A stretch of DNA of 39,302 nucleotides from Acidobacteriota bacterium (GCA_029557535.1 JAKQII010000355.1:1-39302); one strand, 5' to 3'. Shown: positions 21,301 to 32,766, numbered from the stretch's first letter. Program-made: numbers and translations. Notes: generated by a model from the letters alone, not told the origin.

Positions 21301-21906
21301 TCACATCATCTCGAAATCGAGCTCGTCATCCGATTCTTCATCGACGTCCTCGTAGACGGCGGCGGCATCCTGGAATCCGACGAAATTGATGTTGGCCGGC
21401 GTCGTCAGGATCATGAACGGCTCACCCTCCGCGTTTGAAAGAAGGAAAGCTGTGTCGGGCATGATCCCGCCGCGATAGCTGAACTGAAACTTGTAGATCG
21501 CGCCTTCCGAAAGGCGATCGGCGATAGCGGCCGCGTCGTCGCCGGTCAGAGCATAAACCGACTTTACAAGGTGCGAGAGATAATCTTCGATCGTCGCCCG
21601 TTCGATGACTTTGATCGGAGCGTCAAACGACGACGGAACCGTCTCGAGCGGTTCTCCGTCCATCGAATAAGCCGTCAGCGAATCGCGTTTTATCGGGTCG
21701 TTGTCCAGCGAGAGTGTGGCGAAGGCAGTGCCGCCGATTCCGAACAGCGTTTGACCGTCGGCCGCAAGCGAGATCATTTCGGTCTTCTTTCCATCTTCGT
21801 CGAACGCCTCGATGGTCGTCGATCCGTATAGCTTTGAGCGGTCGACCTTTTCGATTCCGGCCGATAGCCCAGTTCCGTCAAATTCGAAAATCAGATTCCG
21901 CGCCAT
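21301..21906 (-). CDS. Unknown 201-residue protein coupled to a Panacea-domain gene
   Basis: The family is not recognised. The protein is soluble and acidic, starts MARNLIFEFDGTGL and is rich in short beta strands, with a helical segment at about 105-135 (ERATIEDYLSHLVKSVYALTGDD). It ends in a strongly acidic tail (EDVDEESDDELDFEMM). The start codon overlaps the stop of the upstream Panacea-domain gene by one base (TAATG), so it is made from the same message and probably in fixed ratio. By analogy with Panacea antitoxin operons it could be the partner or toxin, but it has no visible toxin motif and its size and acidity would also fit a regulator. Confidence 0.6.
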   Translation of the reverse strand: MARNLIFEFDGTGLSAGIEKVDRSKLYGSTTIEAFDEDGKKTEMISLAADGQTLFGIGGTAFATLSLDNDPIKRDSLTAYSMDGEPLETVPSSFDAPIKVIERATIEDYLSHLVKSVYALTGDDAAAIADRLSEGAIYKFQFSYRGGIMPDTAFLLSNAEGEPFMILTTPANINFVGFQDAAAVYEDVDEESDDELDFEMM

Positions 21907-22625
21907 TACCGCTTGTTTAATTCCGGCATGAACTTCGAATACGGATACGCGATCTCTTCGCCGGTCCGCGTGTCTTTCCAGGCGCGCTCCGCATGAGAGA
22001 TCTCGGAGATCTCTTCGGCGCTGAGTTTGCCGAATGCCGAAGCAACGGCCTCAAGTGTCTTGCGTTCGGAATCCGTCAGCAAATCCGGAAAACGTCCGGC
22101 GGCTCGGATCACTTCGCGCGCACCGTGCCGCGTCTCGACGGTGTCGATCGAAATCACGTCGTGCTGTTCCAGGTACGCGATAACATCTTCGTAGCCGTCT
22201 ACAACCGGGCCATACGGCAGATGACGGTACGTCGTGCCCGTGATCGACCGGCCGGTCGCTTTGTAATGGTAAAAATCGGAATAGAACGCGAGCTTGTTGA
22301 GCTTGGTACGCGTCATCATCTTCACGCCGGCACGCATGATGAAAAATAGCAGAACGGCCGAAAATTTCTCGAGCGAGAATTCACGGTAGCCGTTGAAGAC
22401 GCTGCCTTTGGGGAAAGTGTCGCGAAGCGCGATGTGAACCTTTGCCTGCGGATCAAACAGAGATTGATCAAGGTCGTCAATGAATTCGTCCACAAAGCGA
22501 TCGAACATCTCCACGAGCGCGGCGTCCATTTGTTCACGCGTCAAATTCTGTTCGTACTGTGTTTTGAAAAAACGAAGGAGGCCCGGCGTGTGTCGGGTCA
22601 GCCTTTTACGGATTCTCTCGTTCAT
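21906..22625 (-). CDS. Panacea/SocA-like (DUF4065) domain protein, possible antitoxin
   Basis: A 239-residue protein. The N-terminal 100 residues are helical and unrecognised. From about residue 105 the Panacea/SocA pattern is clear: MTRTKLNKLAFYSDFYHYKATG, then TGTTYRHLPYGPVVDGYEDVIAYLE, LLTDSERKTLEAVASAFG, SAEEISEISHAERAW. Panacea is a promiscuous neutralising domain of antitoxins, and SocA is a ClpX adaptor that delivers the SocB toxin. The start is placed at the second of two adjacent ATGs because GGAGG lies just upstream. The next gene is coupled by a TAATG overlap. Whether a toxin is present here is open. Confidence 0.75.
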   Translation of the reverse strand: MNERIRKRLTRHTPGLLRFFKTQYEQNLTREQMDAALVEMFDRFVDEFIDDLDQSLFDPQAKVHIALRDTFPKGSVFNGYREFSLEKFSAVLLFFIMRAGVKMMTRTKLNKLAFYSDFYHYKATGRSITGTTYRHLPYGPVVDGYEDVIAYLEQHDVISIDTVETRHGAREVIRAAGRFPDLLTDSERKTLEAVASAFGKLSAEEISEISHAERAWKDTRTGEEIAYPYSKFMPELNKR

Positions 22626-22678
22626 CATGCCTCCGCGACCAAAAGTCGGAACTGCATGATAGCACACGCCGCGATGGC

Positions 22679-22842
22679 AGATTCCAAGATTCCATGCGTT
22701 GCATTCCAAAATTTCAAGTCCGGGGATTTCGAACGTCGACGCTCGGCGCGAGTTCTTGAGGCGAACTGACAGCGTTGAATGTGCCGTCCGTTATCTTGGA
22801 ATGCGGAGTTTGGAATCCTGGAATGCAAAGCCTGGAATTCCG
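22679..22842. repeat. Inverted low-complexity repeat (ATTCCAAGATTCC type)
   Basis: Between the Panacea gene and the next minus-strand gene, ATTCC repeats (22679-22720) face TGGAATGC / TGGAATCC repeats in opposite orientation (22793-22842). The 70 bp centre is GC-rich and without a gene. The face-to-face layout is like that at 9163-9298. Confidence 0.6.
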
Positions 22843-22850
22843 GGCGCGGA

Positions 22851-23621
22851 TCACGAATAAATAAGCTCGTCCGCTTCGATGACGTGAGACGTCGGTGCGT
22901 TGAAATCACGCGGGATCTGCAGGAGGATCAGCGCCACGTTCGGATTGATCGGCAGGCTGTCGAGCCCGAGTTCGGTGCGGGCGATCAAGAACAGCCTCGA
23001 AACCCCGGCAGATTCCGCTTCGCCGATGATGTCCTGGACGAAGTCGTATTCAAGCTCGCAGGCCGGACGCCAGACGATCACGGGTGCGGAATCGATCAGC
23101 GCGTCGTACTCGAAGCCGTTGATCTCGCCCGGCTCCGCCGGAATCTTGAAGTAGTCGAGAAACGGATCGGCGATCGCCACGGGCTCTACGTTCGACGCTT
23201 CTTCGGCGATCGTGGGGGCAACCTCATGCGAGTCGTCGGCGCCGGCTGATGTCGGATCCGCAAATGCCGCCGAACAGAGCCGGTTGAATGCCGACACCGG
23301 CATTTTGCAGGTGACGCACGTGCCGTTCTCCGCGCGGCAGAAATAGCGTCCCTCAAAGGCGCTGAGCGCGGCCTCGATGTCCGCAAACTCCGCCGACCCG
23401 CGAATCTTCCGGTCAACCCTGACGAACGCGGCGCGATCGATCGGCGCGTCGGCGAGTCGGGAACCAAGAGTACCCAATTCCGATTCGGTAAGTTTGCCAA
23501 AGATTGACGTTACAAGCGGGAGCCAGATTCCGGAAGGATATGCGCCCGGCAAATCTACGGCAAAATAGTACCGAAGGAAACCGGCCTGATCGAATCCGTT
23601 TGGAACAGAAAACTTATCCAA
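22851..23621 (-). CDS. Unknown protein divergent from the ligase-primase operon
   Basis: A 256-residue protein, family not recognised. Residues 1-130 look folded (FDQAGFLRYYFAVDLPGAYPSG, FVRVDRKIRGSAEFADIEAALSAFEGRYFC) and contain CRAENGTCVTCKM, three close cysteines that may bind metal. A low-complexity acidic linker (about 145-165) follows, then a second part ending in VSRLFLIARTELGLDSLP and VALILLQIPRDF. The frame continues upstream to 23714, overlapping the divergent gene. TTG at 23621, with GGGAG four nt upstream, is therefore the preferred start. Its promoter shares about 70 bp with the ligase-primase operon, so joint regulation is possible. Confidence 0.58.
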   Translation of the reverse strand: MDKFSVPNGFDQAGFLRYYFAVDLPGAYPSGIWLPLVTSIFGKLTESELGTLGSRLADAPIDRAAFVRVDRKIRGSAEFADIEAALSAFEGRYFCRAENGTCVTCKMPVSAFNRLCSAAFADPTSAGADDSHEVAPTIAEEASNVEPVAIADPFLDYFKIPAEPGEINGFEYDALIDSAPVIVWRPACELEYDFVQDIIGEAESAGVSRLFLIARTELGLDSLPINPNVALILLQIPRDFNAPTSHVIEADELIYS

Positions 23622-23691
23622 AGCTCTCCCGGTTATGCTAGGATGAGAAGGCAAAAACGAGAGTAATTCAAAAGCATTTCGAACGCAAATT

Positions 23692-24408
23692 ATGCCTATC
23701 AATCTGGCAAACAAGAACCGTCGGGACGCGCGCGTGTCGCTGCTCGGCGTGCGTCCGAAACGCGACGTCCGGTGGCTCGACGAGAGCCGACGCGAGACAA
23801 GGACGGTGCGGCTTCTTCAATGTGACATCAAACACTCGACCGATAGTTTGCTCAAGGAATTCGAAGGCGACCTCGACGAACTCGGCCAGGCGATAATCGA
23901 GGCCGATCCTGAAATCGATCTCGAACAGTTCGGCAAACTTCTGACCGAGACGTCGCGTGTTTATGCCGTCGACGGCGAGATCGCGTATCACGTCGAAGAG
24001 TTTGAGGTCATCACCGATCCCGACGGCAATCTAAAGGAAAGGCGTCCCCGCAGGATCGAACCGCAAAACATAAATTCGGACGTTCCGTTGGTTTGGACGG
24101 GTAAATTCATTTCAAAGGCCGAAGCGGTCCGAAAGTTCGTCTTCACCGGGATGAAGCAGATCACGCACATCAACGGACTCACATACGACTTTCTTTACGA
24201 CATCGCCAAAGAACTCGACGAACGCGATTCGTTCATGCTGCTCGGCGCCGGCAAGGGAAACCAGCCGTTGATATTTCAGCGCGGCGGAAAGCCGTACCGC
24301 GGTTTCCTCGAGGGCCGCGTCGACGGCGAAAAGTATCTGTTGTTGCTTCATTTATCGAACATGGAATTTAAGGCTCCGAAGCCGAAAGCGGAGGAACCGG
24401 TCGAATGA
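23692..24408 (+). CDS. Unknown first gene of the ligase-primase operon
   Basis: A 238-residue soluble protein, family not recognised. The N-terminus is basic (NLANKNRRDARVSLLGVRPKR), which could bind nucleic acid. The centre has a long acidic helix (STDSLLKEFEGDLDELGQAIIEADPEID). The C-terminal half is the most protein-like part: VWTGKFISKAEAVRKFVFTG, HINGLTYDFLYDIAKELDERD, FMLLGAGKGNQPLIFQRGG and GEKYLLLLHLSNMEFK. Its stop overlaps the ligase start (ATGA), so it is a firm member of the operon. A role as a DNA-binding or structural partner of the ligase and primase is a guess from position. Confidence 0.65.
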   Translation: MPINLANKNRRDARVSLLGVRPKRDVRWLDESRRETRTVRLLQCDIKHSTDSLLKEFEGDLDELGQAIIEADPEIDLEQFGKLLTETSRVYAVDGEIAYHVEEFEVITDPDGNLKERRPRRIEPQNINSDVPLVWTGKFISKAEAVRKFVFTGMKQITHINGLTYDFLYDIAKELDERDSFMLLGAGKGNQPLIFQRGGKPYRGFLEGRVDGEKYLLLLHLSNMEFKAPKPKAEEPVE

Positions 24409-25871
24409 TCGCGCTCAACTACGACATCGCGCAGTTCACGCCGAAGATTGGCGGATACATGGTCGGACCGGCGACCGCGCTCGAGAATTTCAGTCTTCAG
24501 GTCAAGGCTCAGGACTTCAAACGCCGGATCAGCGGATTGCTTTATCCGACCAACGGCGACGAAATCGGCGAAAAGCTGTCGAAGAATGGAAAATACGTCG
24601 TCAGCCGGAAGATCGACGGCGAATTCTCGCTGCTCTGTTTCGACGAAGGAAAGGCGCTGACCGTCAATCCGGGCGGAACGGTTCGGGCGGGATTGCCATG
24701 CATCGCCGAGGCCGCCGAAACGCTGCGAGCATCCGGTGTCAGGTCGGCGCTGATCGCTTGCGAGTTGTTCCACCGCAAGCGCCGGGATGGCCGCGAACGC
24801 GTCCATGATGCGATCCGCGTCATCCGCAATCCGCGCGACGAAAATGAACTGAACGATATTTCACTGGCGCCGTTCGCGATCCTCGAATTGGACGGTTCGC
24901 TCCTGACGGATTGGGGTGCCGGACTTGAGAAACTCGCGAAGATCTTCGAGAACGGTTCACTCGTTAAGTCGGTCGAGTTTGAACGCGTCGAGTCGAACGG
25001 CGACGTGATTCGTCTCTACGACAAGTGGGTTCTGGACGAGAATTCAGAAGGTTTGGTCGTCTGGGGCGATCAGGGAGGCTGGAAGATCAAGCCTACCCAT
25101 ACGTTCGACACGGCGGTGATCGGCTTCAGCGAAAGCGTCGAGGATCGCAAGGGAATGCTTCATGATCTTCTGGTCGGTGTGAAGCGCCCGGACGAGACGT
25201 ACCACATTCTGACGCGCGTCGGCGGCGGATTCAGTGAAAAACAGCGGCGCGATCTGTTTGGTGAACTGAAGGAATCGGTTGCACCGTCGAACTACACCGA
25301 AGTGAATTCCGATCATGTCGCCTACGAAATGGTCCGACCGAAATACGTGATCGAGATGAAGTGTCTCGACATCATCTCTGAAAAGGCGCGCGGCGGCGAG
25401 ATCAACCGCATGGTCATCGATTGGCAGCCCGACGACGCCCGCTGGGTTGCCTGCCGCCGGCTTCCTTTTGTGAGTATCATTTCGCCTCAGTTTGTCCGAC
25501 TTCGCGAAGACAAGCGCGCCTCGCTCGCCGACATTCATATCCGCCAAATCGACAGCATTGTTCCCGTCCCGGACGTCGATCTCAAGGTTGAAGATATTCA
25601 ATTGCCGAAATCCGAGATCGTCGAACGGATCGTGTACGCGAAACAACAAGGCGACAAGAAGATGGTACGCAAGTTCATGTTGTGGAAGACGAACAAAGAA
25701 GCTTCGCGCGAGTATCTTCCGTTTATCGTCTACTACACCGACTTCAGTTCGGGTCGCGCCGAGCCGATCGCCCGCAATATCTTGCCCGCCAACACCGTCG
25801 AACAGGCGAACACGATGTTCGCCGAGATGATCGAGAAGAACGTGAAGAAAGGCTGGGAGAGAGTGGTTTGA
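24405..25871 (+). CDS. ATP-dependent DNA ligase with extra C-terminal domain
   Basis: A 488-residue nucleotidyltransferase-superfamily ligase. Motif I is SRKIDGE with the adenylated Lys69. The motif III glutamate is Glu120 (IACELF) and IIIa is FAILELDG (157-164). Motif IV is SEGLVVW (Glu215) and motif V is WKIKP (Lys227, Lys229). An OB-fold follows (DTAVIGFSESV, LTRVGGGFSEKQ, MVRPKYVIEMK), resembling DNA rather than RNA ligases. Residues from about 345 to the end form an additional domain I do not recognise (RLPFVSIISPQF, LPFIVYYTDFSSGRAEPIARNI). It seals nicks using ATP. The gene overlaps both neighbours by 4 nt, pairing it with a primase-polymerase as in LigD, although here the activities are on separate chains. 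Confidence 0.8.
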   Translation: MIALNYDIAQFTPKIGGYMVGPATALENFSLQVKAQDFKRRISGLLYPTNGDEIGEKLSKNGKYVVSRKIDGEFSLLCFDEGKALTVNPGGTVRAGLPCIAEAAETLRASGVRSALIACELFHRKRRDGRERVHDAIRVIRNPRDENELNDISLAPFAILELDGSLLTDWGAGLEKLAKIFENGSLVKSVEFERVESNGDVIRLYDKWVLDENSEGLVVWGDQGGWKIKPTHTFDTAVIGFSESVEDRKGMLHDLLVGVKRPDETYHILTRVGGGFSEKQRRDLFGELKESVAPSNYTEVNSDHVAYEMVRPKYVIEMKCLDIISEKARGGEINRMVIDWQPDDARWVACRRLPFVSIISPQFVRLREDKRASLADIHIRQIDSIVPVPDVDLKVEDIQLPKSEIVERIVYAKQQGDKKMVRKFMLWKTNKEASREYLPFIVYYTDFSSGRAEPIARNILPANTVEQANTMFAEMIEKNVKKGWERVV

Positions 25872-27028
25872 TCGACGAGATCTTCAACGATCCGCACCTT
25901 AAATGGATCGCCGCCGAATGGCGCGAGAACGCAGACCGCCTCGCCGATTGGGCGATGGAACGACTCGTCAACCGCTTCGACGTCTGGGGTCAATACACCG
26001 TCAAACAAACCGTCCTCGGACCAAAGGTCAGCGCCGTCACGCTTCCCGTCAAGGATCTTCGCGAACAGAAAAAAGACTTCGTGTCTCACGAAAAGCTCGT
26101 CCGGCATTTCAAGGGACTCAAGGCCGGACACCTCATCGGCCTCCATCTCGTTTCCGAAGAAGAAACCTGCAAGTGGTTCGCAATCGACCTCGACGTTCAC
26201 GATCCCGAGGATTTTCACGAGAAAACGCGCGTTAACTTTGCGGCCGCGAGCCAGTGGTTCAGGAAGATGCGCGGGGCAATGCTCGATCCATGTATTATCG
26301 ATTCGAACGGTTTTGGCGGCCTTCACGTCATTTGTCTTCTCGACCACCCGTATCCTTTGGCGGAGGTCTTCAAATATCTATCGGAGCTGACGTCGGACTG
26401 GAAATCGCTCGGTCTGGCGCAGGCGCCCGAACTCTTCCCGTCGTCCGAGCGGATCGAAGGCCTCGGAAAATGGCTTCGCATGCCCGGCCGGCATCACACG
26501 CACCAGCATTTTTCCAAGGTTTGGAGCGACGATGATCCCGAAGAGCCTTGGATCGAAGGAATTTCGGCGATTGAACATCTGATCTCGCTGCGGCCGATGC
26601 CGTTGCCGATGGCCGAGCGCCCGAAGCGGATTCGCGAGAAGCCAAAAGCTCGGCATCGCTCGGCCGTTTGCGTCGATCTCGACGCGGTGTTGGCAAAATA
26701 CAAAGGCTGGCGCGGACTCGAAAAGATAGGCGATCCGATCCCGGGAAGCCGTGAATTTCTGACGGAGATCAAAAAGAAGTTCCGGGTGATCATTTACACT
26801 TCGCGAATCAATCTCGAGCACATGCGGGTCGATGAGGTCGCACGGTTGCGGGCACACATCGAACATTGGCTCAATGAAAATGAACTGCCATTCGACGATG
26901 TTTTCACGGGATTCGGCAAGCCGCTCGCGGTGGCTTTCGTCGACGACCGCGCTGTTTCGTGCCGGCCGCAGGAAGACGAAGAAGCGTTTGAGAATGCTTT
27001 GAGGGAGATTGCGAAGTTGAAGTCGTGA
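25868..27028 (+). CDS. Archaeo-eukaryotic primase (TOTE-like AEP) fused to a HAD phosphatase domain
   Basis: A 386-residue protein with two domains. The AEP palm has the catalytic D-x-D at Asp107/Asp109 (FAIDLDVHD), the second motif SNGFGGLHVI with His153, and the third motif KWLRMPGRHH (201-210). These are the three motifs of primase-polymerases, closest in style to AEPs of the TOTE conflict group. Residues about 266-370 are a HAD hydrolase: VDLDAV (Asp270, Asp272), IIYTSR, Lys351 in GKP and FVDDRA. Such HADs could remove 3' or nucleotide phosphates. The start is TTG at 25868, with GGGAG eight nt upstream and overlapping the ligase stop as TTGA. Together with the ligase this suggests gap filling, end cleaning and sealing. 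Confidence 0.8.
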   Translation: MIDEIFNDPHLKWIAAEWRENADRLADWAMERLVNRFDVWGQYTVKQTVLGPKVSAVTLPVKDLREQKKDFVSHEKLVRHFKGLKAGHLIGLHLVSEEETCKWFAIDLDVHDPEDFHEKTRVNFAAASQWFRKMRGAMLDPCIIDSNGFGGLHVICLLDHPYPLAEVFKYLSELTSDWKSLGLAQAPELFPSSERIEGLGKWLRMPGRHHTHQHFSKVWSDDDPEEPWIEGISAIEHLISLRPMPLPMAERPKRIREKPKARHRSAVCVDLDAVLAKYKGWRGLEKIGDPIPGSREFLTEIKKKFRVIIYTSRINLEHMRVDEVARLRAHIEHWLNENELPFDDVFTGFGKPLAVAFVDDRAVSCRPQEDEEAFENALREIAKLKS

Positions 27029-27201: not shown

Positions 27202-27606
27202 TCAACCAGCCAACTTCTCGATCGCTTTGAATTCCTCGGGCGTGACCTTCGTGACCGATAATCTCCCTTGTTTGACGAGCATCATGTTCGCGAGTTCAGG
27301 AGTCGCTTTGATGACATCAAGTGACACCGCGTTCTTCACGGGGCCGACGCCTTCGATGTCGACACAGATCCACGCGTCGTCGTCCGCCGTCGGATCCGGA
27401 TACGCCTCGCGCACGACCGTCGCCTTTCCGACGACAGCTTTCACCGAACCGGAATGATAGAAGAAGACGTCGTCGCCGACCTTCATCTCGCGCAGGAAAT
27501 TCCGCGCCTGATAGTTGCGGACGCCCGTCCAGTCGGTCTTGCCGTCGCGCATCAGGTCCTCGAACGAGTACGAGGACGGTTCTTGTTTAACCAGCCAATA
27601 ATTCAT
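27202..27606 (-). CDS. EVE domain protein
   Basis: A 134-residue protein of the EVE family, PUA-like barrels thought to bind modified bases in DNA or RNA. The text is canonical: MNYWLVKQEPSSYSFEDL, WTGVRNYQARNFLREMKVGDDVFFYHS, VVGKATVVREAYPDPTADD, and a C-terminal helix TPEEFKAIEKLAG. EVE/YTH-like proteins recur near restriction and other defence genes, but house-keeping versions are common too. It converges with the ligase-primase operon, separated by a REP-like element. No Shine-Dalgarno is seen; the upstream DNA is a run of AGTAAAAAG repeats. Confidence 0.9.
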   Translation of the reverse strand: MNYWLVKQEPSSYSFEDLMRDGKTDWTGVRNYQARNFLREMKVGDDVFFYHSGSVKAVVGKATVVREAYPDPTADDDAWICVDIEGVGPVKNAVSLDVIKATPELANMMLVKQGRLSVTKVTPEEFKAIEKLAG

Positions 27607-28830: not shown

Positions 28831-29870
28831 CACACCGTCCCGACACGGACCGACGTGATCCGCGGCAAGTGGTTGCCGAGGCACTCCCACGAATCGCCGT
28901 TGTCGCCTGAGAAATAAACGCTTCCGCCGGTCGTCCCGAACGCGACGCTGCCGTCGCTCGACGCGCCCATCGAATCGCGCAGGACGCAGTCGTAAACGTC
29001 CTTTTGCGGCAACCCATTCGACAAAGCTTCCCAATTTTCGCCGGCGTCGGTGCTGCGGTAAACGCGCATTCTGCCTTCCGGGAATACGCGTTCGGCATCG
29101 GCCTTGATCGGGATGATGAACATTCGGTCGGGACCGTTGGACGCGCAGGCGAAGCCGAAATCGGTCGGCAGTTTGTCCTTGCCGACGTTGATCCAGTTGT
29201 CGCCGCGGTCGTCGCTGCGATAGACGCCCCAGTGGTGCTGAAGAAAGAGCCGGTTCGGATTCGACGGATCGTACGCGATCTTGTGGACGCACTGGCCGAA
29301 TTCGGGTTCGGGATCCGGCAGGAACGGCGCGACGATGTTCTTGTTCGCCGCCGTCCAAGTCCCGCCACCGTCCGACGTCTTGTAGCAGCCGCCGGTCGAG
29401 GTCGCGACGACCCAATTGTTCTCGTCAATTGGCAGAACCGTGTGCATGCAAAGCCCGCCGAAGCCCGGTCCCCACTGCGCGCGGTGCGGATGGTTCCAGA
29501 GTCCTTCACACAGCTGCCAGGATTTGCCGCCGTCGTCGGATGTGAATAACGCCGAAGGCTCGACGCCCGCGAACAATCGATCACCGAGCGCCGTGATCTG
29601 CCAGATCTTTTTGAGCGCCGTTTCGGTCTCTTCGGGGAATTTGAGCGGATGCTCCATCGTTTCCCACGTCCGACCGCCATCTTCCGACCGGCAAAGCATC
29701 TGGCCCGTCCATTCTGTGAACGGCGCGGCCCAAAGTGACCCACCGATGAACTGCGTCGCGAAGACAGATTGCCCGTTGAACTGCGGTTCGCGGCAAGTCC
29801 AGCCGTCGCCGTTGCGATCAAAAATGAAGAGTCCCTTGAGCGTGCCGACAGCTATCGTGTTTGCAGACAT
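28830..29870 (-). CDS. Asp-box (BNR/VPS10-like) beta-propeller protein
   Basis: A 346-residue protein with six Asp-box motifs of the S-x-D-x-G-x-x-W type: SEDGGRTW, SDDGGKSW, TSDGGGTW, SDDRGDNW, STDAGENW and SGDNGDSW. They are spaced as in a six- or seven-bladed propeller. There is no signal peptide, so it is probably cytoplasmic, unlike true sialidases, and the sialidase catalytic arginines are not evident. The downstream MoaD-like gene is translationally coupled, so the propeller may be a partner or scaffold for the sulfur carrier. The start MSANTIAVGTLKGLFIF is the first blade strand. Confidence 0.83.
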   Translation of the reverse strand: MSANTIAVGTLKGLFIFDRNGDGWTCREPQFNGQSVFATQFIGGSLWAAPFTEWTGQMLCRSEDGGRTWETMEHPLKFPEETETALKKIWQITALGDRLFAGVEPSALFTSDDGGKSWQLCEGLWNHPHRAQWGPGFGGLCMHTVLPIDENNWVVATSTGGCYKTSDGGGTWTAANKNIVAPFLPDPEPEFGQCVHKIAYDPSNPNRLFLQHHWGVYRSDDRGDNWINVGKDKLPTDFGFACASNGPDRMFIIPIKADAERVFPEGRMRVYRSTDAGENWEALSNGLPQKDVYDCVLRDSMGASSDGSVAFGTTGGSVYFSGDNGDSWECLGNHLPRITSVRVGTV

Positions 29871-29897
29871 GGAAAATCACCGCCTATGATGAAAAAT

Positions 29898-30515
29898 ATG
29901 TGCGGAAGAATATCACAAAAAGGCCGTCGTGAGGATTTCAAAGAATTTATCTACAAATTCGATCCGCAGGAGGATCTTTTTCGGCCGAACATCAAACCGA
30001 CGCAGAATGTGCAGATCGTGATCAACGACGAAGACGACGACGCGCATACCGTCACGGCGCGCTGGTGGTTCCAGAAAGAAGGCGCGAAAGAGTTCAGTAC
30101 CGAGTACACGACGTTCAACGCCGCCGCCGAAAAGCTTGAGAAGAGCTTTCTATGGCGCGGCGCGTTCCACAAACGCCGCTGCATTGTTCCGGTGACGTCG
30201 TTCTACGAATGGAACGTCAAGGGCGAGCCGCCGCTCGACATCGGAATGCCCGTCCGCGATCAACCGTTCGCGCTCGCTGGATTGTGGAGCAATTTCTATC
30301 CGGAAGGCGAACATCAATTCTCGTTCACGATCATCACGACCGACCCGAACGATTTCATGAAGCCGATCCACCGCCGCATGCCGGTCGTCCTCGGCGGATT
30401 GAAAGATCAGGAGAAATGGCTGAAAAGCGGCGGGATCGAGATGCTGCTGCCCTACGAGGGCGAACTCACGGGCGAGAAACTGGGTCAGTCGCTTGAGAAG
30501 TTGTACCCGGCTTGA
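29898..30515 (+). CDS. SRAP protein (YedK/HMCES family), abasic-site crosslinking
   Basis: A 205-residue protein of the SOS-response-associated peptidase family, which covalently protects abasic sites in single-stranded DNA. The catalytic Cys must be residue 2, so the ATG at 29898 (MCGR) is chosen over in-frame ATGs at 29886 and 29889. Other active-site residues are visible: the Asn in FNAAAEK, the Glu in RRCIVPVTSFYEW and the His in KPIHRRMPVVL. The family acts at replication forks, fitting the repair-rich window. It is divergent from the Asp-box gene by only 27 bp. Confidence 0.92.
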   Translation: MCGRISQKGRREDFKEFIYKFDPQEDLFRPNIKPTQNVQIVINDEDDDAHTVTARWWFQKEGAKEFSTEYTTFNAAAEKLEKSFLWRGAFHKRRCIVPVTSFYEWNVKGEPPLDIGMPVRDQPFALAGLWSNFYPEGEHQFSFTIITTDPNDFMKPIHRRMPVVLGGLKDQEKWLKSGGIEMLLPYEGELTGEKLGQSLEKLYPA

Positions 30516-30651: not shown

Positions 30652-32766
30652 CTAATTCAGCAACTCCGGTCCTTTCTCCTCGATCGCAACCGGTGCGTCG
30701 AAGGACGGCGATTCTTCTTCGAGCGACCAGATCTCGAACAACGCAGGCGGGCATTCATGGATGAACCGCGACGGTTTCTGGAGCACAGTCTGACGGTTGT
30801 AATCGACGACCATCAGCGGGTACGTGAGATAAAGCTCGTTCTTCGCCCGCGTCAGCGCGACATACCAAAGTCGGCGCTCTTCCTCTTCGCTGTCGATCTC
30901 GCGCAAGGACCGCGGCGACGGGAACTTTCCCTCTGCGGTCCAGATCATGAACACGACGTTCCATTCCAAGCCCTTCGCCTGATGGACAGATGAAAGCGTC
31001 AGCAACTCGTCGGGTTCGCCGCCCTCGATCACGTCCTCAGCCGAGATCGCGGACGGTTCCTTGAAACGTTCCGTCGAAAGCAACGCGAGCTCTGAAAGGA
31101 ACGCCTCGGTCGTTTCGTACCGCGACGCATAAAGTGCGAGCTGCCGGATATCCTCGGCGCGCATCTCGGCATTTTCGAACGTCTCGATAAGGTATTGTTC
31201 GTAGCCCGAGGTGAGGACGAGCTCGATCTGTTTCGCGGGCTTGTCCCGGTTATCGTCCGAGACCAGTTTCTCGACGAGCGTCACGAATTCCTGCCATTGG
31301 GGTTTGGACTGCAGCTTTGCAGGAGCGACGAGATTTGCGATTTGCAATTTGCGATCTGCGATCGCCGTCGACTCTTGCCCCGAACCAAATCCGAGATCCG
31401 AATTCCCAAATCCGAAATTGGAGTAGATCTTGTTCGCTGTCGCCGGCCCGACGCCCGGGATCAGTTTCAAAATCCGCTTCCACGCCAGTTCGTCGCGCGG
31501 ATTCACGAGAATTCGCAGATAGGAAACGACGTCCTTGATATGTGCCTGCTCAAAGAACCTGACGCCTGATTGCACGCGGTACGGGATGTTGCGCCGAGTC
31601 AGTTCGAGCTGAAGTTCAAGGCAGTGATAGTGCGACCGGTAAAGCACCGCGATGTCTTCAAGCGAAGTTCCCTCGTCTCGCAGTTCGAGGATGCGCGCAG
31701 CGATGAATGCTGACTGTTGTTCGACGTCCGAGCACGGGATCAGCGCCGGCCCAAAACCGCGCGATTTCCGAACGGCCTTGAGCATCTTCGGAAATTGCCG
31801 CCGGTTGTGCGCGATCGACGTGTTCGCGAGGCCGAGAATTTCCGGTGTCGAGCGATAGTTCGTCTCGAGCTTGTATGCGGTCGCGTCGGGATAACGTTCG
31901 GGGAACTCGTAAATATTCGTGAATTCGGCTCCGCGCCAGGCGAAAATGCTCTGCGCGTCGTCGCCGACGACCATCACGTTGCGGTGTTTGACCGCCAGAA
32001 GATCGATGATCCCGGCCTGCAGTTTGTTCGTGTCCTGATATTCGTCGACCAGAATGTGCTGGAACTGCTCGGCATAAATCTCGGCGATCTCCGGTCGTTC
32101 GATCAGGAGCCGTTTCCAGTTGAGCAGGAGGTCGTCGTAGTCCATCACGTTCCGCTGGCGTTTCCGGTCCTGAAAGTGAAGATCGATGAGCCTGATCTGG
32201 CCGGTCAGCGGTTCGAAATGCGGATACTTGCTGATGATGATGTCGGCGATCGGCTGATCGGTGTTGTTCGCGAACGAGATGATGTCCTGAATGACCTCAG
32301 CTTTCGGGAACCGCTTCGATTTCGTATCAACGCCGGTTTCGTCGATCGAGACATTGATCATGTCCTTCGCGTCCTCGGCATCGAGGATCGAGTAGTTGTT
32401 GGCGTAACCGATCGAAACAGCATGCTTGCGAAGTATCAGATTCGCGATGCGGTGGAACGTGCCGCCCCAGATCCGATGGACGTTCTGCGAGCCGGTAAGC
32501 TGTTCGACGCGGCGCAGCATCTCGCGCGCGGCCCGGTTCGTGAAGGTCGCCAGAAGGATGCGCTGCGGCGAAATACCGCGCTCGATCAGGTACGCGACCC
32601 GATAGGTGATCGTCCGCGTCTTTCCGGTGCCGGCACCGGCGACGACCAAGGCCGCTCCGGGTTTAGCCGTCACCACGCGAAACTGCTCCTCGTTCAGCTC
32701 TTCGCGATACCGCGTGAGCCGTTCGGGGAGCGAGTCATGGTCGCGCTTGATGACGTACTTTTTCAT
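30652..32766 (-). CDS. UvrD/PcrA-family superfamily 1 DNA helicase
   Basis: A 704-residue SF1A helicase: Q-motif LNEEQFRVV, Walker A VVAGAGTGKT (41-50), motif Ia LLATFTNRAAREM, motif II DEYQD (241-245), motif III VVGDDAQSIFAWRGA, motif IV LETNYRS, and later LTLSSVHQAKGLEWNVVFMIW and ERRLWYVALTRAK. UvrD/PcrA helicases unwind DNA in excision repair and remove RecA. An HhH-like GVGPATANKIY is followed at about residues 448-479 by FGFGNSDLGFGSGQ and IADRKLQIANL. Those are direct translations of the genome's intergenic repeat, inserted without breaking the frame. The insertion makes this copy longer than expected. The specific subgroup is uncertain. Confidence 0.9.
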   Translation of the reverse strand: MKKYVIKRDHDSLPERLTRYREELNEEQFRVVTAKPGAALVVAGAGTGKTRTITYRVAYLIERGISPQRILLATFTNRAAREMLRRVEQLTGSQNVHRIWGGTFHRIANLILRKHAVSIGYANNYSILDAEDAKDMINVSIDETGVDTKSKRFPKAEVIQDIISFANNTDQPIADIIISKYPHFEPLTGQIRLIDLHFQDRKRQRNVMDYDDLLLNWKRLLIERPEIAEIYAEQFQHILVDEYQDTNKLQAGIIDLLAVKHRNVMVVGDDAQSIFAWRGAEFTNIYEFPERYPDATAYKLETNYRSTPEILGLANTSIAHNRRQFPKMLKAVRKSRGFGPALIPCSDVEQQSAFIAARILELRDEGTSLEDIAVLYRSHYHCLELQLELTRRNIPYRVQSGVRFFEQAHIKDVVSYLRILVNPRDELAWKRILKLIPGVGPATANKIYSNFGFGNSDLGFGSGQESTAIADRKLQIANLVAPAKLQSKPQWQEFVTLVEKLVSDDNRDKPAKQIELVLTSGYEQYLIETFENAEMRAEDIRQLALYASRYETTEAFLSELALLSTERFKEPSAISAEDVIEGGEPDELLTLSSVHQAKGLEWNVVFMIWTAEGKFPSPRSLREIDSEEEERRLWYVALTRAKNELYLTYPLMVVDYNRQTVLQKPSRFIHECPPALFEIWSLEEESPSFDAPVAIEEKGPELLN

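Follow-up and report, generated by a model that had tools for sequence, protein, structure and literature searches.

Gene content of the locus

We analysed a 39,302-nucleotide stretch of an Acidobacteriota genome (GCA_029557535.1, JAKQII010000355.1:1-39302; hereafter the window), which carries what is probably a non-homologous end-joining (NHEJ) system. The genes P0001, P0002 and P0003 follow one another with overlaps of 4 nucleotides (nt) each (ATGA and TTGA), as an initial annotation of positions 23,692 to 27,028 had described them. The start codon of P0003 is TTG and matches the homologue starts in the alignment. A further gene, P0006, lies outside that interval and is divergent from P0001 (Table 1).

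Table 1. Features of the putative end-joining locus, in window coordinates
Feature	Position	Strand	Basis
P0001, second Ku-fold subunit (predicted), 238 amino acids	23692..24408	+	AlphaFold2 (AF2) model, Foldseek, VIA
P0002, ATP-dependent DNA ligase, 488 amino acids	24405..25871	+	Pfam, PDB profile, motifs
OB domain of P0002 with motif VI R367-x-D369-K370	25146..25514	+	PF04679, residues 248-370
Unnamed C-terminal domain of P0002, about residues 395-488	25587..25868	+	Invariant basic/Trp residues; weakly WGR-like
P0003, AEP primase-polymerase and HAD phosphatase fusion, 386 amino acids	25868..27028	+	PF22548; 7nqd and 1xpj alignments
AEP domain of P0003	26048..26533	+	Pfam match, residues 61-222
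HAD domain of P0003	26654..27025	+	PDB profile match; phage polynucleotide kinase family match
P0006, first Ku-fold subunit (predicted), 201 amino acids	21301..21906	-	AF2 model, Foldseek, VIA, co-occurrence
Acidic C-terminal tail of P0006, ...DELDFEMM-COOH, putative docking peptide	21304..21327	-	Linker of low predicted local distance difference test score (pLDDT); 66 homologues
P0005, Panacea (SocA-like) protein	21906..22709	-	PF13274, E 3.9e-21

The ligase P0002

Judged by its sequence, P0002 is a complete ATP-dependent DNA ligase. Motifs I, III, IV and V, the OB domain and motif VI are all present. The residues K69-D71-G72, E120, E215, K227 and K229, which bear out the intact nucleotidyltransferase motifs noted at first, and R367-x-D369-K370 in motif VI are invariant in 75 homologues. 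The window protein matches the Pfam ligase OB domain (PF04679) with an E-value of 9e-10, and among its relatives 12/12 match DNA_ligase_A_C and 11/12 match DNA_ligase_A_M. A profile search retrieved solved DNA ligases in the PDB at E 1e-18. No further ATP-dependent ligase match was found in the window's genome.

The domain that follows the catalytic core is still unnamed, as the initial annotation had it. Its invariant residues are R408, K413, R422, K423, K431, R451 and W484. It has no sequence match in the PDB and no Pfam match to WGR, a DNA-break-binding domain. An hhalign comparison with WGR scored above 100/100 shuffles, with a Prob of only 9-23% and over the last 36 columns only.

Two proteins with a predicted Ku fold

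Alignments of the P0006 and P0001 families, read by eye, suggested a Ku-like succession of strands and helices. AF2 models built from alignments of 66 sequences for P0006 and 72 for P0001 reached mean pLDDT values of 82.6 and 84.1, respectively. When the models were compared with the PDB by Foldseek, Ku made up all 50 matches listed for each protein, the best being B. subtilis Ku for P0006 (E 1.8e-5) and M. tuberculosis Ku for P0001 (E 1.3e-5). The best Ku matches had a Foldseek probability of 1.00, and human Ku70 and Ku80 ranked after bacterial Ku for both proteins. With VIA-align, P0006 aligned to B. subtilis Ku over 158 residues (Z 11.0, root-mean-square deviation (rmsd) 6.8); the bacterial Ku core has about 227 residues, so that nearly all of it is covered. 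P0001 aligned to M. tuberculosis Ku over 120 residues (Z 12.4, rmsd 3.3) and gave a Z of about 12 with Ku80. Both predicted models contain the β-barrel core of Ku, a barrel that is common to SPOC domains as well.

The initial annotation had left the 238-residue product of the first gene unrecognised and had found no Ku in the window. By sequence P0001 is indeed matchless in Pfam, NCBIfam and PDB profile searches, and the latter two gave no link of P0006 to Ku either. The fold search that the annotation had recommended for P0001 nevertheless led to Ku, and with P0006 the window holds two proteins of predicted Ku fold. Weak matches of P0001 and P0006 to PUA_4, CRR7 and PDC-S05 were dismissed as chance. 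We claim for both proteins a predicted Ku fold and, from their context, a Ku-like role; membership of the Ku family PF02735 is not claimed. All sequence methods were negative, and the claim rests on predicted folds.

P0006 ends in an acidic tail that follows a disordered linker, with pLDDT values below 50 at residues 185-192 and 199-201. The last eight residues, at the very C-terminus, have the pattern D/E-D/E-hydrophobic-D-F-x-M/L-hydrophobic. The F at -4 is present in 66/66 sequences and the D at -5 in 60, and position -2 is M or L in 63. The tail may be an end-anchored docking peptide for the ligase, and the C-terminal domain of P0002, with its conserved basic and tryptophan residues, is probably its natural receptor.

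The conserved unit

The conserved unit consists of P0006, P0001 and P0002, with P0003 as a frequent accessory. In a sample of 396 Acidobacteriota genomes, the full-length ligase is present in 12, and the P0006 and P0001 families, used as profiles, picked out the same 12/396 genomes; the ligase search also gave three short hits, which belong to other ligases. In the 11 of these 12 ligase loci that were retrieved for neighbourhood reading, P0001 is present in 11/11, with a P0006 relative immediately upstream in 11/11, and P0003 in 6/11.

The unit extends well beyond this phylum. An alignment-profile scan of public genome contigs found 111 relatives of the ligase, of which 80 were kept; an earlier scan with a single protein as the query had given no matches. 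The relatives come from Acidobacteriota, Planctomycetota, Verrucomicrobiota, Myxococcota (including Nannocystis isolates), Gamma- and Alphaproteobacteria, Bacteroidota and others, and the full triad recurs in Acidobacteriota, Planctomycetota, Verrucomicrobiota, Myxococcota, Proteobacteria and Bacteroidota. Synteny was counted in 81 loci, the window included. All three families occur together in 67/81, and in 64/67 complete loci they stand in the order P0006-P0001-ligase on one strand. Of the measurable gaps between the genes, 56/65 and 62/75 are at most 100 nt. Outside the window, P0006 is directly 5' of P0001 on the same strand in nearly all loci; the divergent arrangement of the window is also seen in a Pyrinomonadaceae bin (L027). 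The 14/81 loci without a nearby P0006 relative include several contig ends, and 10/14 have one elsewhere in the genome. Since the genes recur together across phyla, their association is more than chance. The three families also have correlated pairwise distances (Mantel r 0.76-0.83, 0/999 permutations as high), which fits joint inheritance; shared species history contributes too.

These counts revise the unit that had been proposed at first, a trio of P0001, the ligase and the AEP-HAD fusion. Its P0001-ligase pair is kept. The AEP-HAD gene accompanies roughly one locus in three and is not part of the core, and the most conserved partner is P0006, which lay outside the interval annotated.

A few loci depart from the common layout. 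The ligase of L090 (793-2251) extends over two overlapping frames, indicating a frameshift or a sequencing error. L072 has a second, partial P0006-family copy (134-529) 5' of the full one. In L075 (9980-14559) the core is rearranged: the ligase stands first and four small genes come next, ahead of a P0006 relative, a P0001 relative and a DUF2779 protein. The P0001-family protein of L066 (8663-9985) carries a C-terminal SAM domain, and other gammaproteobacterial members are also long.

Classical Ku and LigD

No classical Ku (PF02735) was found in the window's genome, which is 98% complete. In the phylum sample, classical Ku occurs in 0/12 genomes with the triad and in 127/396 overall (Fisher p 0.011, a value weaker than it appears because the genomes are related). 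It is likewise absent from 42/50 other genomes with the triad. Encoded with the ligase is a pair of predicted Ku-fold proteins outside PF02735. LigD joins polymerase, phosphoesterase and ligase in one chain. Here the ligase and the AEP and HAD activities lie on separate chains, which supports the split LigD-like role suggested by the initial annotation, and neither Pfam nor NCBIfam gave a phosphoesterase match among the window proteins.

P0003 and other accessory proteins

P0003 is a fusion of an AEP domain and a HAD domain, and the motifs first reported for it are intact. The AEP domain matches AEP-TOTE (PF22548) above the cut-off (E 5.5e-7) and has the hhhDhD, sxH and hE/D motifs of prim-pols. 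Its metal-binding residues D107/D109, H153 and E188 are conserved and align with those of the CRISPR-associated prim-pol (CAPP) 7nqd. The HAD domain has the characteristic D270-x-D272, T-S-R, GKP (K351) and D359-D360 motifs and aligns with PDB 1xpj at E 1.9e-6. Residues 259-346 match a phage polynucleotide kinase family (E 9e-4), and an NCBIfam HAD match falls below the cut-off.

The AEP-HAD gene is 3' of the core in Acidobacteriota and 5' in proteobacteria. Because it occurs on different sides of the core, the gene seems to have become associated with it on more than one occasion. A gene of the exonuclease/endonuclease/phosphatase (EEP) family lies 3' of the ligase in eight loci of gamma- and alphaproteobacteria. 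RecBC (L082, 2043-8626) and an AddAB-like pair (L043, 2132-8526) adjoin the core divergently in two phyla.

A proposed end-joining pathway

We propose that the locus encodes an NHEJ-type system for joining double-strand-break ends, independent of LigD and composed of a two-subunit Ku and a dedicated ligase, to which gap-filling, phosphatase and nuclease partners may be added; we put the probability of this at about three in four. The proposal follows from the obligate partnership of a predicted Ku-fold pair with a complete ligase, joined by a polymerase-phosphatase in about a third of the loci. It draws on co-occurrence and catalytic motifs, which are observed, and on predicted folds; from these we infer end binding, the heterodimer, tail docking and the order of steps. 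P0006 and P0001, as divergent subunits, most likely pair as one heterodimeric ring, and one such ring would sit on each DNA end. The pair would then recruit P0002, a step in which the acidic tail of P0006 probably engages the basic domain at the C-terminus of the ligase. If required, the AEP polymerase of P0003 could fill gaps, and its HAD domain could take off a blocking terminal phosphate, work otherwise done by the polymerase and phosphoesterase domains of LigD or by PNKP. In marine gamma- and alphaproteobacteria, the EEP-family protein may join the system.

Several observations weigh against this proposal. A Pfam scan (E<=1) of P0001 and P0006, with 12 members each, gave no match to PF02735, and hhalign matched the two families to a Ku alignment no better than to shuffled Ku. 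Nor is there a sequence link between P0006 and P0001 beyond shuffled controls; an apparent relation (p 0.018) lay within these controls and was rejected. The TM-scores with Ku are modest, about 0.35-0.46, the Foldseek rmsd is mostly 7-12 Å, and part of the presumptive DNA-encircling bridge region has low confidence in the models. Classical Ku coexists with the triad in 8/50 genomes, mostly Nannocystis and relatives, and we rejected a strict exclusion of one by the other on this ground. Finally, the barrel fold is common to SPOC and to INTS13/14, neither of which binds DNA ends. The Z of P0001 with SPOC (11.5) is near that with Ku (12.4), so the fold alone cannot separate the two. P0006 and P0001 could then be a SPOC/INTS-type scaffold that holds the ligase and polymerase for nick or gap repair and does not encircle DNA ends. 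The lack of a sequence link to Ku and the lower-confidence bridge regions of both models would suit such a scaffold, as would the Z values of P0001 with SPOC domains (10.7-11.5) and of both proteins with INTS13/14 (about 9-10). We nevertheless consider it unlikely: every one of the 50 Foldseek matches listed for each protein is Ku, the alignments to bacterial Ku cover nearly its entire core, and the pair is constantly accompanied by an ATP-dependent ligase, with an accessory AEP.

The AEP of P0003 matches both AEP-TOTE and CAPP, the distribution of the locus is sporadic and a Panacea protein adjoins the system in two lineages, all of which could point to a mobile conflict or anti-phage system like the TOTE or CRISPR-associated prim-pol loci. 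Such a role is highly improbable, given that the strict co-occurrence is with the ligase and not with the AEP, whose neighbours are the core triad. No TOTE ATPase/helicase, nuclease or CRISPR component was seen among the labelled neighbours scanned, and PADLOC recognised none of P0001, P0002 and P0005, while its matches to P0006 and P0003 were weak. P0001 was not found in plasmid, phage or viral collections, and an origin from these was rejected; the ligase gave a single weak and partial match in viral contigs, which is not a family member. It is harder still to believe in an RNA-repair cassette, in which the ligase would seal RNA, the HAD domain trim phosphates and the AEP add nucleotides. 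Although 4/12 ligase members also match Pfam RNA_ligase (up to 1e-5), the matches to the two DNA ligase domains given above have far better E-values, and DNA ligases predominate among the PDB profile matches, where no mRNA capping enzyme scores better than E 0.35. The predicted Ku-fold partners and the RecBC and AddAB-like neighbours also argue for DNA as the substrate.

Relation to known end-joining systems

The proposed end-joining system resembles the Ku-LigD systems of Mycobacterium and Bacillus in that genes for a Ku-fold end binder (putative here), an ATP-dependent ligase, an AEP polymerase and an enzyme that trims ends stand together. Bacterial Ku is a homodimer that works with LigD (PMC12784961), and some Streptomyces have multiple classical ku genes (PMC5124664). 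Here, two different proteins of predicted Ku fold without PF02735 similarity stand beside a ligase with an unnamed C-terminal domain, the activities lie on separate chains and a HAD domain replaces the phosphoesterase. Eukaryotic NHEJ (Ku70/Ku80, Lig4, Pol mu/lambda and PNKP) likewise has two Ku subunits, a free-standing ATP-dependent ligase, a separate polymerase and a HAD-type phosphatase. It differs from the present system, which has no vWA domain on either predicted Ku, an AEP in place of an X-family polymerase, no recognised XRCC4 or XLF and Ku components without sequence similarity. P0003 shares the positions of the catalytic D-D, H and E with CAPP (7nqd) and the TOTE AEP (PF22548), but it is fused to a HAD domain and tied to the putative Ku-ligase core, without CRISPR or TOTE components. 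SPOC and INTS13/INTS14, with the same barrel as the P0006 and P0001 models, are eukaryotic adaptors in transcription and RNA processing, whereas these two bacterial families accompany a DNA ligase.

We lean, by a little, towards a broader view, namely that the locus belongs to a separate NHEJ lineage found across many phyla, with an obligate two-subunit Ku missed by sequence searches and a ligase family of its own. It would be a LigD-independent counterpart of Ku70/Ku80-Lig4 in genomes thought to lack NHEJ. The parts seen of two sequence-based surveys of bacterial NHEJ (PMC7719229, PMC11936186) do not mention the P0006 and P0001 families. No earlier description of such a system was found in the open-access literature; one may exist elsewhere. 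If the Ku pair is real and invisible to sequence surveys, lineages scored as NHEJ-negative would have end joining, and a bacterial two-subunit Ku could be compared with Ku70/Ku80. The locus is also a source of small components from which a minimal end-joining system could be built.

Other genes near the system

In the window, the divergent P0006 and P0001 genes are separated by a minus-strand stretch (21906-23714) that contains P0005, of the Panacea family, and upstream of it an unknown 287-residue protein, P0004. P0005 is coupled to P0006 by TAATG, in which its stop overlaps the P0006 start. This stretch is probably an insertion into the divergent core pair, and P0005 is a possible accessory; a homologue is located 3' of the P0003 relative in L022/L045. 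Genes of two DNA-repair families lie near the system, one for a SRAP-domain protein (29769-30515, plus strand), for which the other loci yielded no relative, and one for a UvrD-type helicase (30652-32766, minus strand). Between P0003 and these genes, a minus-strand gene (27202-27606) encodes a small protein that we take to resemble an EVE/PUA-like domain.

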